A program made the translations under genes and the position numbers. From the NCBI GenBank assembly GCA_020052635.1, contig JAGVOR010000194.1:1-5433 (forward strand): DNA of 5,433 nt, given 5' to 3'. This DNA is from Candidatus Omnitrophota bacterium (GTDB lineage Bacteria; Omnitrophota; Gorgyraeia; Gygaellales; Profunditerraquicolaceae). The notes below the pieces were generated by a model. The model made no database searches and was not told the origin of the DNA. It saw only the letters and a program-made list of their open reading frames with translations. Below are positions 1,501-5,420 of the stretch, in pieces (the stretch's first letter is position 1; each line of letters starts with the position of its first letter).

Positions 1501-2292
1501 CTACAACGGGCAGATTTTAGTTTGAAAACCATCCCGGATGAGCCTATCCTCTAAATCTAGCGCTTCCTGGCGGGATTTTACTTTACCCACCTTAACCCGG
1601 TAACCTGAGCCGGCATCTTCCAGGTAAGCCGGATAATTTTTACTTAATAAGGTATCTTTAAAATTATTAGCATTAGCGCTGCTGGTAAAAAACCCTACCT
1701 GAATAGAATATTCCCCGCCCTCTGCAGAGCTATTCAACGCCGGCTCACACTCCCCCACTGAAGGCCCAACCACAACAATACCCTTGGAACCCCTTAGTTC
1801 CGGGCTTAAAGGAAAATCCCTTTTTAGCTTAGTCAGGTATTCGCTGCTCTTTTGATAATTACCGCGCCGAGACTCCAGCTGGCTTAAACGATAAAGCACT
1901 GCTGGTTTTTGAGGGCTGTTAATACTGTCGGAAATTAACTTATGGTAAGCCGCCTCAGCCTCCTGGAACTTCCCCGAGACCAGATAAGTATCCGCCAGAG
2001 CTAAACCGGCTTCCGCTTTAAATTTGCTTGCCGAATTATCCAGGATCCTGCGGAAACAATCTTGCGCTAAATCCAATTTGGCTTCTTTAATGTAACTAAG
2101 ACCTACAATATAATTTAACTCATCGGCATTACCGAAGCGAATACGGCTAAGTTCGGCCTGCCCTTCAAAAATTACCCGGCGGTAATTCCCCTGCAAAAAA
2201 TCCGCTTTTAAAGCATCCAGGTCGAATGCCCAGGCACTGCTGTATTGGCTAAAACAGACCAAAAGAGCCACCACCGATTTATTTATGCGCAT
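1501..2292 (-). CDS. Secreted TPR-repeat protein with C-terminal SPOR domain
   Basis: The 263 residues begin with a probable Sec signal peptide: R2 and K5, a hydrophobic core at residues 7-14, and an A-W-A site predicting cleavage after residue 22. No lipobox is evident, so a soluble periplasmic protein is likely. Residues about 25-165 look like three or four tetratricopeptide-type helical repeats with YbgF/BamD-like spacing. After a linker at about 167-192, residues 193-261 (from EYSIQVGFF to the end) match a SPOR domain, a family that binds glycan strands lacking stem peptides at division septa. The likely role is in envelope or division-site peptidoglycan, possibly as a scaffold; the partner is unknown. 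The start overlaps the end of miaB by 14 bases, and AAGGAG lies 11 bases before the ATG. I do not assign a gene name. Confidence 0.88.
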   Translation of the reverse strand: MRINKSVVALLVCFSQYSSAWAFDLDALKADFLQGNYRRVIFEGQAELSRIRFGNADELNYIVGLSYIKEAKLDLAQDCFRRILDNSASKFKAEAGLALADTYLVSGKFQEAEAAYHKLISDSINSPQKPAVLYRLSQLESRRGNYQKSSEYLTKLKRDFPLSPELRGSKGIVVVGPSVGECEPALNSSAEGGEYSIQVGFFTSSANANNFKDTLLSKNYPAYLEDAGSGYRVKVGKVKSRQEALDLEDRLIRDGFQTKICPL

Positions 2293-3445
2293 TATCTTTT
2301 TTGCTCCTTAATTTCTGCGAAATATTTCTTTGAATATCTAAAATCTTTTGATGCCGTTTTTCTTTTTCGCCGGTTTTGAGCACTTCGGCTATTTTCGCAG
2401 CAGCTGTCTGCGGCCGAAAGGAATATTTAAAAATATAAGCGGAATTAAATTTAACCTTTTTAAGCAAAGCGCAGCTTTGGTTAAATTCTTCGGCAGACTC
2501 CGTAGGAAACCCTACAATAATATCGGTAGTTAATAATCCCCCTTTAACAATTTTACGATAAGAATCAACTAAGGCCAAGTAATCTTTTACGCTGTAGCCA
2601 CGGTTCATCAGTTTTAAAATCCGATCGGAACCGGACTGCACCGGTAAATGCAGGCGTTTGACTGATTTTTCGGCATCCCGGATTACTTTAAAAAAATCCG
2701 GATGCGCATCCTTAGGATGAGAGGTAAAAAAATCAAACTCCTTTAACCCACTTAAGCCGTTGACCTGAGTAAGCAGCTTGGTAAAATCAACCTGGCTATC
2801 CTGATAAGCATTAACATTCTGGCCCAACAGGGTAAGCTTAGTTACTCCCCGGTCAAGAGCTTGCTGTATCTCGGCTAAAATATCTTGATATTTACGATGG
2901 CGTAAAGGGCCGCGCACATAAGGCACCACACAATAGGAACAAAAATTAGAACAACCTTCCGATATCACAACATAAGCATGCCGATTATCCTGCGCGAAAC
3001 CGCTGTGATAAATTTCTTCCGGCCTGATAGTACCTTCGGTCTCCCAGATTTTGCATTCCAATAAGTTATTCAAGGTAACCTTTTTAAGTATCTCCGGAAG
3101 CTTGGCGATATCCTGCGGCCCCACCACAAAGCTAATCCGCGGGTCTCGCTCAAAAGCACGCTGTTGGTAATTTTGAGCCATACACCCCACCAGGCCGATA
3201 ATTTTAGCGCCCTTGTAACTGCCAATCAAGCTCCACACCCGGTCTTCTGCATGCTGGCGTACTGAACAAGTATTAAAAATAATTACCTCGGCATCCTGAT
3301 CGGATGGGGTAATTATAAAACCGGCCTTGCTCAACAAACCGCAAATTACTTCCGAATCCCGAAGATTCATTTGGCATCCGTAGGTAACAATGTAGAGACG
3401 CTTGCCCTTTCCGTCGTAAGTATCTGATTTTCCTGCACTTCCCAT
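2279..3445 (-). CDS. miaB: tRNA-2-methylthio-N6-dimethylallyladenosine synthase MiaB, lacking a TRAM domain
   Basis: MiaB is a radical SAM methylthiotransferase that adds a methylthio group to C2 of i6A37, completing ms2i6A37. The N-terminal domain (about residues 17-130) carries the three ligands of the auxiliary 4Fe-4S cluster: C24 in YGCQMN, C60 in FNTCSVR and C88 in VGCMAQ. The radical SAM CxxxCxxC is C165, C169 and C172 in SEGCSNFCSYC. HLPVQSGSD (266-274) and a YSFRPQTAA segment (341-349) are typical of MiaB. YGCQMN and the dependence on the miaA product favour MiaB over MtaB or RimO. The protein is 388 residues, while family members are usually about 430-460 and end in a TRAM RNA-binding domain, which is absent here. 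The first 15 or so residues are not family-like and overlap the recombinase gene. The ATG at 3445 is supported by AAGGAG and GAGG upstream. A start at Met26 would lose C24. Confidence 0.94.
   Translation of the reverse strand: MGSAGKSDTYDGKGKRLYIVTYGCQMNLRDSEVICGLLSKAGFIITPSDQDAEVIIFNTCSVRQHAEDRVWSLIGSYKGAKIIGLVGCMAQNYQQRAFERDPRISFVVGPQDIAKLPEILKKVTLNNLLECKIWETEGTIRPEEIYHSGFAQDNRHAYVVISEGCSNFCSYCVVPYVRGPLRHRKYQDILAEIQQALDRGVTKLTLLGQNVNAYQDSQVDFTKLLTQVNGLSGLKEFDFFTSHPKDAHPDFFKVIRDAEKSVKRLHLPVQSGSDRILKLMNRGYSVKDYLALVDSYRKIVKGGLLTTDIIVGFPTESAEEFNQSCALLKKVKFNSAYIFKYSFRPQTAAAKIAEVLKTGEKEKRHQKILDIQRNISQKLRSKKDNAHK
2304..2309 (-). promoter_or_regulatory. Shine-Dalgarno site of the TPR-SPOR gene within miaB
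   Basis: A full AAGGAG on the minus strand lies in the last codons of miaB, 11 bases before the ATG at 2292. The spacing is slightly long. It supports this start and coupled translation with miaB. Confidence 0.6.
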
Positions 3446-5004
3446 TTTATCCTCGCTCCTTCATAGAGACTTTTGTAAGGCTCAAAAAGCTCAAAGCTCT
3501 TTATCCTGCCGTTATCAATTTTTATGCTTTTGAAGAGCATCCTGAGCAACCCTTTCTTGCTCACAAAATCCATCCTCTCATTTATGCTCTGGAAATGATT
3601 CACCACATCCCTTATCATCTTCAGGTATTCCTCGTTCCTCTCCCTCTCAATCAGGGAAAGCTCAAGCTTTCTTATCTTTCCCTTGATTTCCTTTTCCTCA
3701 TCCCTTAAAGGGATAATCTGCCTCTTGTATGCCTCAATCGCAAGCAGGCCATCTGTGAATATGCTGCTTAACCTTTCCTGCTTTATGATATTCTCCTCAA
3801 GCTTAAGCTTTGCCTCTCCCAATTGTTTTTCTGAATCCTCTGAATGGGAATGAGAACTGTTCTTCACAAGATTGAATAATCTTGCGTCATCAATATCCTG
3901 ATCGAATATGACTGAAATAATAGTGTAAACCTCTATCTCAATATCCTCAGCCCTCGCATAAGAATTTTCGCAGGGCATATCATATGTTTGCCTTGCGCTG
4001 CACCTGTAATATCTTCTCTTTGTCTTTGTTTTCTTGTTTTCCCTTGTAGCAGTATTCATGCAGCCCTGGAAGCTGTTGTCGCATCTCGCGCAGGAAATTA
4101 TTCCTGTCAAAGGATACTCATTTGAGTTGCACTTCCTCACCACTCCTTTTCTTGCAAAAGCCATCTTTTTCTGGACAGCATCAAAATCATCCTGATAGAT
4201 TATCGCCTCATGCCTTCCTTTGACAATTATAACCTTTGAAGGCTCGTTCCTGACATACTTGCAGCCTTTCAGCGTTTTCTGCTTCTTGTCATAGTGATGG
4301 CGGTTCCATACAAGATTGCCAAGATAAATCTGGTTCTTGAGAATATCGCAGATAAGCTTTGTGTTGAATCTTCCGCCGCTTCGTGTCTTGTATTCCTTCC
4401 TGTAAAGATAGCCTGCGACCTGTTGCGTGCTCTGGCCTGCAAGATACATCGTGTAAGCCAGCTTCACGATATCAGCCTCTTCCTTTACCACCTCAAGAAG
4501 TTTCTTTCCCTTGTTATAGTAATAGCCATAGGGCGAATATCTCGCGCCCTGCCAGTTGCCTCTCTGCACCCCTTTAATCATCCCGGGAAAAACTCTTTCC
4601 TTTATCCTGTTTCTTTCAAACTCGGCAAAGCTTCCCAATTGCTGAAACATCATCTTGCCTGCCGAATTGGATGTATCATAAGCCTCTGTTGCTGACTTTA
4701 AGGAAATGTCAAGCAGCTCAAGCTCCTCAACAAGATTAAGCAAATCCCTGAGATTGCGGCTGAACCTGTCAATCTTGTGAACAATAACCATCTCAAACTT
4801 TTTCTTCTTCGCATCAGCAAGAAGCTTTCTCAGCGCAGGCCGTTCCATTGAATAACCGCTGTAACCGTCATCAACATAAATCTCCGCTATTTCATTTCCT
4901 TCCCTTTGCGCATAAGAGACAAGAAACTCCTTCTGCACTTCAAGGGATGTTCCCTCGCGCGCCTGGTCCTCTGTTGATACTCTGGTATACAGGGATACCT
5001 TCAT
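3367..5004 (-). CDS. Large serine recombinase (site-specific integrase)
   Basis: Large serine recombinases cut both attachment sites through a phosphoserine link and rotate the strands to integrate or excise DNA. Counted from the ATG at 5004, the resolvase-type catalytic domain spans about residues 2-147, with R8 and nucleophile S10 in YTRVS and the DRFSR motif at 79-83 (R80, R83). A recombinase DNA-binding domain follows (about 155-265). A zinc ribbon has CxxC at C305/C308 and later ligands C335 and C345. A charged coiled coil lies at about 390-465, the part that in this family controls synapsis and directionality. I chose ATG 5004 over TTG 5007 because AAAGGA is seven bases upstream and the Ser falls at position 10. 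At 545 residues the protein is a normal size. Its last 25 or so residues are read from DNA that also encodes the start of MiaB, so that tail is probably not ancestral. Confidence 0.93.
   Translation of the reverse strand: MKVSLYTRVSTEDQAREGTSLEVQKEFLVSYAQREGNEIAEIYVDDGYSGYSMERPALRKLLADAKKKKFEMVIVHKIDRFSRNLRDLLNLVEELELLDISLKSATEAYDTSNSAGKMMFQQLGSFAEFERNRIKERVFPGMIKGVQRGNWQGARYSPYGYYYNKGKKLLEVVKEEADIVKLAYTMYLAGQSTQQVAGYLYRKEYKTRSGGRFNTKLICDILKNQIYLGNLVWNRHHYDKKQKTLKGCKYVRNEPSKVIIVKGRHEAIIYQDDFDAVQKKMAFARKGVVRKCNSNEYPLTGIISCARCDNSFQGCMNTATRENKKTKTKRRYYRCSARQTYDMPCENSYARAEDIEIEVYTIISVIFDQDIDDARLFNLVKNSSHSHSEDSEKQLGEAKLKLEENIIKQERLSSIFTDGLLAIEAYKRQIIPLRDEEKEIKGKIRKLELSLIERERNEEYLKMIRDVVNHFQSINERMDFVSKKGLLRMLFKSIKIDNGRIKSFELFEPYKSLYEGARIKWEVQENQILTTERASVSTLLPTDAK
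3400..3460. other. Putative integration junction (attachment half-site) at the 5' end of miaB
   Basis: Recombinase-like sequence ends near its Trp at 3444..3442, and family-like MiaB sequence begins near Arg16 (3400..3398). The junction between element and host DNA should lie between or close to these points. Large serine recombinase elements typically carry the attachment site next to the recombinase gene. The exact crossover dinucleotide cannot be read from one end. The partner site would lie beyond 5433 and is not in this window. Confidence 0.4.
3450..3461 (-). promoter_or_regulatory. miaB ribosome binding site inside recombinase coding sequence
   Basis: On the minus strand AAGGAG (3461..3456) and GAGG (3454..3451) lie ten and five bases before the miaB ATG. 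They fall in the recombinase codons for Glu-Gly-Ala-Arg, so the translation start of miaB appears to be supplied by, or to overlap, the mobile element. This site decides the 3445 start. Confidence 0.6.
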
Positions 5005-5011
5005 CAAGAAA

Positions 5012-5018: not shown

Positions 5019-5420
5019 TTATTTCAATGGCTTGTAATAAGGCAACTTAGTTACCCTTCCCTGCTTGCTCACAAAGAAAACATCAACCCTAAGTTTCTTT
5101 CTAATTTCCAGCGGAAGTTTCTTTACCTTATCTTTATAAGTTATGGGAAAGCCCAATGCATATTGCCCGTTCTTCTGGCACATTCTCAAAAGAATTTTCG
5201 CCAGATTGTCTAGAAAGTAATTTTCCTTCTTGGCGTGTCTACTTTCTCCTTGAGGCTCTGGCTTTACTTCTACAAAATAATACCTGCAAAGCTTAGGATG
5301 ATATCCCTTAAGATCAACCCCATGCTCATGCCCTTTGGCTTCGTGAGTAATCCGATATCCATTATTAATTAAATAATCTTTAATCTTTGTCCTAACCCAA
5401 TCTTCGCTATATATACTCAT
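5019..5420 (-). CDS. Small PD-(D/E)XK nuclease-like protein, function unknown
   Basis: I do not recognise a named family for this 133-residue protein. A restriction-endonuclease-like core is suggested by HGVDLKGY (residues 33-40), then a strand ending YYFVEVKPE (47-55). D36, E51 and K53 fit the D...ExK metal-binding triad of PD-(D/E)XK nucleases. An N-terminal helix (about 6-20) and a later helix (66-82) also fit the fold. No signal peptide or membrane segment is visible, so it is probably cytoplasmic. It could be a restriction or repair nuclease, a Holliday-junction-resolvase relative, or a catalytically inactive relative. The recombinase gene follows after 14 bases, so both are probably co-transcribed element genes. 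The frame stays open from the ATG to the window edge and no ribosome binding site is visible in the 13 bases available, so a longer N-terminus is possible. Confidence 0.62.
   Translation of the reverse strand: MSIYSEDWVRTKIKDYLINNGYRITHEAKGHEHGVDLKGYHPKLCRYYFVEVKPEPQGESRHAKKENYFLDNLAKILLRMCQKNGQYALGFPITYKDKVKKLPLEIRKKLRVDVFFVSKQGRVTKLPYYKPLK

Follow-up and report, generated by a model that had tools for sequence, protein, structure and literature searches.

A serine recombinase gene extends into the coding sequence of miaB

The window analysed here is one whole contig of 5,433 bases from a 69%-complete Omnitrophota genome (G000; 1.09 Mb in 199 contigs), and on its minus strand a gene for a large serine recombinase (LSR) runs directly into miaB. 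(G-numbers denote genomes, L-numbers loci or stretches, and P-numbers proteins.) The LSR gene (3367-5007, minus strand) encodes 546 amino acids counted from a TTG, or 545 from an ATG at 5004, and its Resolvase N-domain, recombinase domain and zinc ribbon (Pfam PF00239, PF07508 and PF13408) place the protein among the LSRs. Its best NCBIfam match is CcrB, at 224.5 bits against a cut-off of 900 and so below the family threshold, and for a model of the LSR homologue P0004 the top Foldseek matches were the serine integrase complexes 9y66 and 9dxh. The miaB gene (2279-3445, minus strand) encodes 388 amino acids with UPF0004 and Radical_SAM domains, and barely clears the NCBIfam MiaB equivalog cut-off (TIGR01574; 357.2 versus 355.3 bits). 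Among named genomes, the protein finds its closest counterparts in Candidatus Omnitrophota.

An earlier note on this DNA had described a 79-base overlap in which the LSR frame passes through the miaB start and ends at a TGA. The open reading frame (ORF) coordinates bear this out: the LSR 3´ end and the miaB 5´ end share bases 3367-3445 of the minus strand in two different frames, and the LSR stop TGA reads TCA on the plus strand at 3367-3369. Comparison with related junctions suggests how these bases are divided. Codons 1-23 of miaB (3377-3445, minus strand; MGSAGKSDTYDGKGKRLYIVTYG) are supplied by the element and form the P arm of the left-hand attachment site (attL), as judged against L005 and L016. 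A putative two-base crossover core, TG, lies at 3375-3376 (minus strand), where identity breaks on either side, and forms bases 1-2 of the cysteine codon (TGC) in the MiaB motif GCQMN. The remaining bases (3367-3374, minus strand; CCAAATGA) are the host B´ arm, which provides the LSR stop, and miaB is a hybrid, host-derived from base 3374 downwards. A Shine-Dalgarno-like GAAGGAG, read from the sequence ahead of the miaB ATG (3456-3462, minus strand), also comes from the element. We consider it very probable that the window represents the attL of an LSR mobile element that enters the 5´ part of miaB and supplies its first 23 codons, start codon and ribosome-binding-site-like sequence, likely by recombination of attP with attB at the conserved cysteine codon; that the LSR gene spans attP is our inference.

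The junction recurs across Omnitrophota

We searched 384 Omnitrophota genomes with the window LSR (E-value up to 1e-60) and inspected the 3´ end of each match. There were 44 matches in 41 genomes, and 343 genomes had none. In 34 of the 44 (33 found by script and L105 by hand, the window included), the LSR frame stops at a TGA within GGN TGY CAR ATG AAY, the miaB codons for GCQMN, and miaB then follows; five of these LSR frames (L114, L122, L269, L270 and L275) are broken or incomplete further upstream. With the LSR frame ending at an identical position of this miaB motif in so many matches, the overlap is far beyond chance. It had been called unusual; it is real, and instead of being a peculiarity of this contig it is a design that an element family repeats. 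The suggestion that a tRNA-modification gene is the integration target likewise stands. The finding is more general than a single-contig observation. Outside Omnitrophota, none of 67 miaB loci (L017-L084 without L036; E-value up to 1e-8; up to 2.5 kb upstream, with 8 of the 68 stretches shorter than that) had an LSR match, and the single match in L017-L084 was L036, an Omnitrophota locus.

The crossover most likely falls at the first MiaB cysteine codon

Among eight hosts of L013-type elements, mean identity is 85% in the 110 bases left of the TG and 57.5% in the 110 bases right of it; for L013 and L130, the counts are 110 of 110 and 57 of 110. The window, L005 and L016 show the same break (90% left, 61.5% right), with 35 of the 36 nucleotides left of the core identical between the window and each of the other two, and the hosts diverging to the right. 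L005 is an independent assembly with a near-identical element sequence (LSR 94%), while the L016 host is distant (MiaB 46%). At the opposite element end, the common sequence starts at TG and the preceding letters vary. Since identity on the left ends at the TG and the common sequence of the distal end begins there, TG is most likely the crossover core; it forms bases 1-2 of the codon that specifies the first MiaB cysteine, the residue that presumably binds an auxiliary iron-sulphur cluster. The attachment site had been placed in the first codons of miaB; the 5´ part of the gene holds, while the crossover moves to Cys codon 24, with codons 1-23 coming from the element. We had also considered a core at the ATG of QMN, suggested by the first right-hand site (attR), and dropped it when L106, the second L097 remnant and the L013-type set put host letters directly after TG. 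Around the core, the P and P´ arms show weak pseudo-palindromy, with a match of 0.334 at offset 0 versus 0.22-0.28 at other offsets; by comparison, a two-base core within pseudo-palindromic arms fits an LSR, albeit with weak arm symmetry.

Distal ends, empty sites and stacked elements

Truncated, native-like miaB 5´ ends joined to element sequence were found in 14 genomes (G001, G009, G012, G034, G050, G082, G088, G090, G092, G115, G143, G260, G349 and G389). In seven of them an LSR-hybrid miaB follows on the same contig and strand, with the remnant 12.7 to 99.9 kb upstream of it (G092, 12.7 kb; G082, 16.1 kb; G090, 18.0 kb; G143, 22.6 kb; G050, 23.4 kb; G009, 43.2 kb; G088, 99.9 kb); the nearer of the two remnants in G092 has no clear start codon. 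The remnants resemble miaB 5´ ends in relatives where the gene is uninterrupted (MSNKEITKNKVFVRTFG in G082, MSNKELEKNEVFVRTFG in L011).

Joining the flanks in silico restored empty sites. In G088, a Velamenicoccus genome in a single contig of 1,974,201 bases, the joined flanks give one 829-nucleotide, 86% match to the uninterrupted L012 locus, 797 nucleotides of it left of the core, where the real attL matches L012 for only 6 nucleotides. For G082 compared with L007, the joined flanks match over 81 nucleotides left of the core versus 17 for the real attL. Eleven tests besides G088 were made against six relatives, and six were judged clear (G082, G143, G050, G001, G349 and G115). The junction in 34 of 44 matches, the identity break at TG and these empty sites in relatives all support the earlier note's view of a serine recombinase element integrated at the 5´ end of miaB. 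LSR-free relatives matching the upstream sequence past the junction, which that note had named as contrary evidence, did not appear, by eye for the window and by alignment for sister elements.

L013-type elements measure 18.0 kb in G009, 18.8 kb in G088 and 18.2 kb in G143, core to core. Between the G009 and G088 copies, identity is 99.2% across 7.8 kb at one end and 95.5% across 6.9 kb at the opposite one. These stretches extend to both cores and enclose a differing middle of about 3.4 kb; the G143 copy is more distant. The MiaB proteins of G009 and G088 are 65% and about 50% identical to that of the window. A second LSR lies ahead of the L013-type element in G009 and G088, and a second remnant is present in G143; therefore, elements stack at the site, and several might do so presumably because attL still holds the B´ arm. 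Phages seem to use the site too, given that the 16.1-kb element of G082 resembles viral contig L263, on which there are genes for a terminase small subunit and an internal virion protein. L263 (IMG/VR) was itself examined as a possible attP and rejected, as it has G082-prophage-like sequence on the left and a G092-type element on the right, and is thus a tandem junction.

Some results sit less comfortably with integration as we describe it. The remaining joined-flank tests were marginal (G009, G012 and G389) or uninformative (G092 and G090), and no distal attR belonging to the window turned up in its assembly, in which the contig ends at 5433 and the genome is 69% complete. Seven of the 44 LSR matches finish elsewhere or at tandem junctions, one (L111) lies at the site without miaB, and two (L271 and L273) had endings that were not assessable. 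Tandem or extended LSR endings are those of L106, L120 and L181, and the L274 LSR ends in a comEC-like gene, named by eye from its translation.

Related LSRs were also seen at other genes. The family member in L121 (3147-3172) stops at the homologous cysteine codon of an mtaB-like gene, recognised by eye from TLGCKVNQYET, an apparent retargeting to a miaB paralogue. The LSRs of L119 (near 3115) and L272 (near 3073, reverse strand) stop inside an rlmN-like gene, at codons of the conserved GEP motif (by eye); rlmN is another radical-SAM RNA-modification gene. In L111, the LSR stop (near 3148, reverse strand) is at the usual site. There the miaB-like frame closes after GCQMNGRDWEER, with an ispE-like gene (named by eye) next to it, and a different contig carries an intact miaB start of the native type.

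Further observations concern the cargo and surroundings of the elements. The G009 island carries a class D beta-lactamase-like ORF (L102, 8680-9474, minus strand; 223.1 bits, under the curated cut-off of 250) and a type I/MAD2-like DNA methyltransferase (L101, 14635-16194, minus strand), also under its curated cut-off. A miaB-5´-like att pattern occurs on both strands with overlapping coordinates at G349:C1:61026-61057 and 62849-62880, as near-perfect palindromes of GTCTTTATAAAGACCTTCGGCTG. A 542-nucleotide stretch of L324 (about 485-1030) is 93% identical to sequence upstream of miaB in L009, where the miaB regions are only about 64% alike; the stretch is perhaps another mobile gene.

The recombinase gene may span its own attachment site

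The distal and tandem junctions yielded 24 distinct P´ arms, the sequence that would follow the core in the circular element. The LSR frame stays open for at least 18 codons in 23 of the 24, compared with 9 for the miaB frame and 8 for the third frame; mononucleotide shuffling expects 0.30 per arm. In 18 arms the LSR frame stops at 18-21 codons, and many of the tails carry the amino acid motif [GA]RWxxYxxxMxxLAEAxxG, which is kept while the DNA varies. Such tails are found joined to LSRs at tandem junctions. Among the 215 database homologues listed, 166 end in the truncated pattern and 22 fit a tail pattern, with a false fit in at least one case (P0032). AlphaFold modelling of the homologue P0004, which is 78% identical and has the tail, gives a low overall predicted template modelling score (pTM; 0.39); residues 525-553 have predicted local distance difference test (pLDDT) values below 50, and a tail helix spans 551-567 with block means of 55 and 67. 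In this weak model, which is suggestive only, the dual-coded stretch would form a disordered linker and the tail would be helical.

Most simply, the LSR gene would span attP, and its tail would be swapped at integration for a stop inside the conserved ATGAAY of miaB. The open, conserved tails in the P´ arms may point to an attachment site within the recombinase gene, the circular form being unseen. Recombination at the two-base TG core would join the P arm of the element, with its substitute miaB 5´ end, to the host miaB body and so produce a single hybrid gene in frame. The native 5´ end would stay at the far end of the element, as comparison in relatives rather than in the window's own genome indicates. 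In the circular form, the LSR frame would continue for about 20 codons into the P´ arm. The opposite element end would thus encode the tail, and each integration would likely cut it off: because YCARATGAAY in miaB would put a TGA as the third codon past the core, the integrated LSR would be without its tail. Going a step further, we suggest tentatively, and as somewhat less than an even chance, that this is a bacterial "self-trimming" serine integrase, in which a long enzyme, its C-terminal helix borne on a disordered linker, is made from the circular or tandem form, and integration exchanges the tail for a stop taken from the Met-Asn codons of the target, switching activity, stability or direction.

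There are grounds for caution about the tail. One arm (L168) stops after 2 codons, and the arms are homologous; therefore, the 23 open arms are not independent. The ratio of nonsynonymous to synonymous polymorphism (pN/pS) in 13 similar arms is 0.69 in the LSR frame versus 0.92 and 1.10 in the others, and in 23 arms 0.83 versus 0.88 and 1.10, which is modest evidence for coding. The tail and body of one same element were never seen joined, and a circular attP of any element was not found.

An alternative that we regard as unlikely, yet the strongest competitor, is that the LSR truly ends at the attachment site and integrates without meaningful change to the protein, the open P´ tail reflecting either shared descent or a constraint on the DNA as the binding site of the recombinase. 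The weak pseudo-palindromy of the arms (0.334 at offset 0) would fit such a constraint on the DNA itself, as would the modest substitution signal and the arm that closes so early. It accounts poorly, however, for openness specific to one frame (23 of 24 against 9 and 8), for stops clustered at 18-21 codons, for a motif preserved at the amino acid level despite DNA variation, and for tails joined to LSRs in tandem junctions.

The hybrid miaB genes are likely functional

All 34 hybrid miaB genes have an ATG or GTG start codon 21-37 codons ahead of the cysteine, and 26 have a Shine-Dalgarno-like match (by a loose pattern). None has an early stop: 29 continue for at least 330 codons past the cysteine to their stop, and five reach the end of the available stretch, which for L122 comes only 58 codons past the cysteine. 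Each of the 12 genomes checked has one MiaB, with G088 and G115 showing theirs as two pieces of one gene and G000 being incomplete; the remaining matches are paralogues of 28-36% identity. The L016 hybrid passes the MiaB equivalog cut-off, as does that of the window, and the L013 hybrid is slightly under it (341.5 versus 355.3). Because starts are present, early stops absent and MiaB single in the checked genomes, and given the equivalog scores, hybrid MiaB likely keeps its function. That integration instead inactivates miaB and leaves a pseudogene is improbable; the native start is lost and the L013 hybrid scores low, but 34 of 34 hybrids have a start and no early stop, they are the sole MiaB copy where this was checked, and two of the hybrids scored exceed the cut-off.

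Even less credible is an LSR that is an old, vertically inherited neighbour of miaB and not mobile. Recurrence at one place across the phylum might suggest it, but 343 of the 384 genomes have no match, near-identical elements sit in different hosts, native-like miaB 5´ ends lie at distal junctions, and relatives retain empty sites. A chimeric contig that fuses an Omnitrophota miaB to a foreign recombinase, a doubt also voiced in the earlier note and natural for a window that is one whole contig of a fragmented genome, can practically be set aside, because the junction recurs in L005, with its near-identical element, and in the distant host L016, as well as at 33 other LSR places and in the single 1.97-Mb contig of G088.

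Other genes in the window

Upstream of the LSR gene lies an element ORF of 133 amino acids (5019-5420, minus strand) in which a D..EVK nuclease-like motif was noted by eye only; it had no family match in Pfam, PHROGs or NCBIfam. The main genes of the window, all on the minus strand, are this ORF, the LSR gene, miaB, a TPR/SPOR protein gene, miaA and an hflX-like GTPase gene represented by its N-terminal part, the names miaA and hflX being based on Pfam domains.

Implications

These results define, in an uncultured phylum, a recurring hotspot at which phages and islands integrate, and describe a housekeeping gene for RNA modification in which mobile elements repeatedly rewrite the N-terminus. 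If the self-trimming idea is true, the serine integrase protein would differ between the free and integrated states, a possible natural answer to how such integrases switch off after integration. With the att arms mapped to a two-base core, the idea is directly testable.

Relation to known integration systems

In this comparison, we take rimO to be a paralogue of miaB. Among the literature matches listed, whose coverage leaves out most subscription papers and preprints, we found neither an LSR at miaB nor a serine integrase whose own gene contains attP. Targets from the MiaB family are in themselves not new, because mobile elements at rimO have been published, one with a serine recombinase (PMC4482086; PMC9658991). 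This is prophage J1_pp_2 of Variovorax boronicumulans, described at rimO with a 16-bp repeat (PMC9658991). By description it shares with the window a serine recombinase and a MiaB/RimO-family target; that description mentions no replacement of the 5´ end, no overlap and no splitting of the integrase (PMC9658991).

Replacement of the target's 5´ end also has a described counterpart. Islands and prophages associated with dusA integrate in the 5´ end of this tRNA-modification gene; sequence of the element takes the place of that end and is proposed to preserve a working N-terminus. Other targets named there are thdF/mnmE, rluA and the MiaB-like rimO (PMC4482086). The manner of working, with the element replacing the target gene's 5´ end, is the same, without implying membership, whereas those elements use dusA and tyrosine recombinases, and here the target is miaB and the LSR frame overlaps the replacement 5´ end.

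LSRs at conserved genes are known as well. The SCC and ECC cassettes are LSR elements in the 3´ region of rlmH (PMC6222049); they share with our elements LSRs at a conserved RNA-methyltransferase gene, variable cargo and, for the window LSR, CcrB as the best NCBIfam match. The window element does not belong to them, with 224.5 bits against the CcrB cut-off of 900 and miaB rather than rlmH as target, and the account consulted describes no overlap of ccr with its target (PMC6222049). Diverse LSRs are reported to share one conserved coding-sequence site, such as that in a prolyl isomerase gene; the main text of that study does not mention miaB and describes no replacement 5´ end or overlap (PMC10083194).

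Finally, proteins altered by integration have been described in two settings. In the archaeal suicidal integrases of SSV, pTN3 and pT26-2, the attachment site lies inside the integrase gene, which integration alters, a behaviour said to be exclusively archaeal (PMC8371274). Those are archaeal tyrosine recombinases that are split, whereas the bacterial serine recombinase in Omnitrophota would lose only a tail of about 20 amino acids. In the integration-dependent immunity of mycobacteriophages, attP lies in a phage gene and a TGA made at the junction trims the C-terminus of the protein (PMC9262239). There, a repressor is trimmed by way of a tyrosine integrase and a tRNA gene; here, the protein trimmed would be the recombinase itself.

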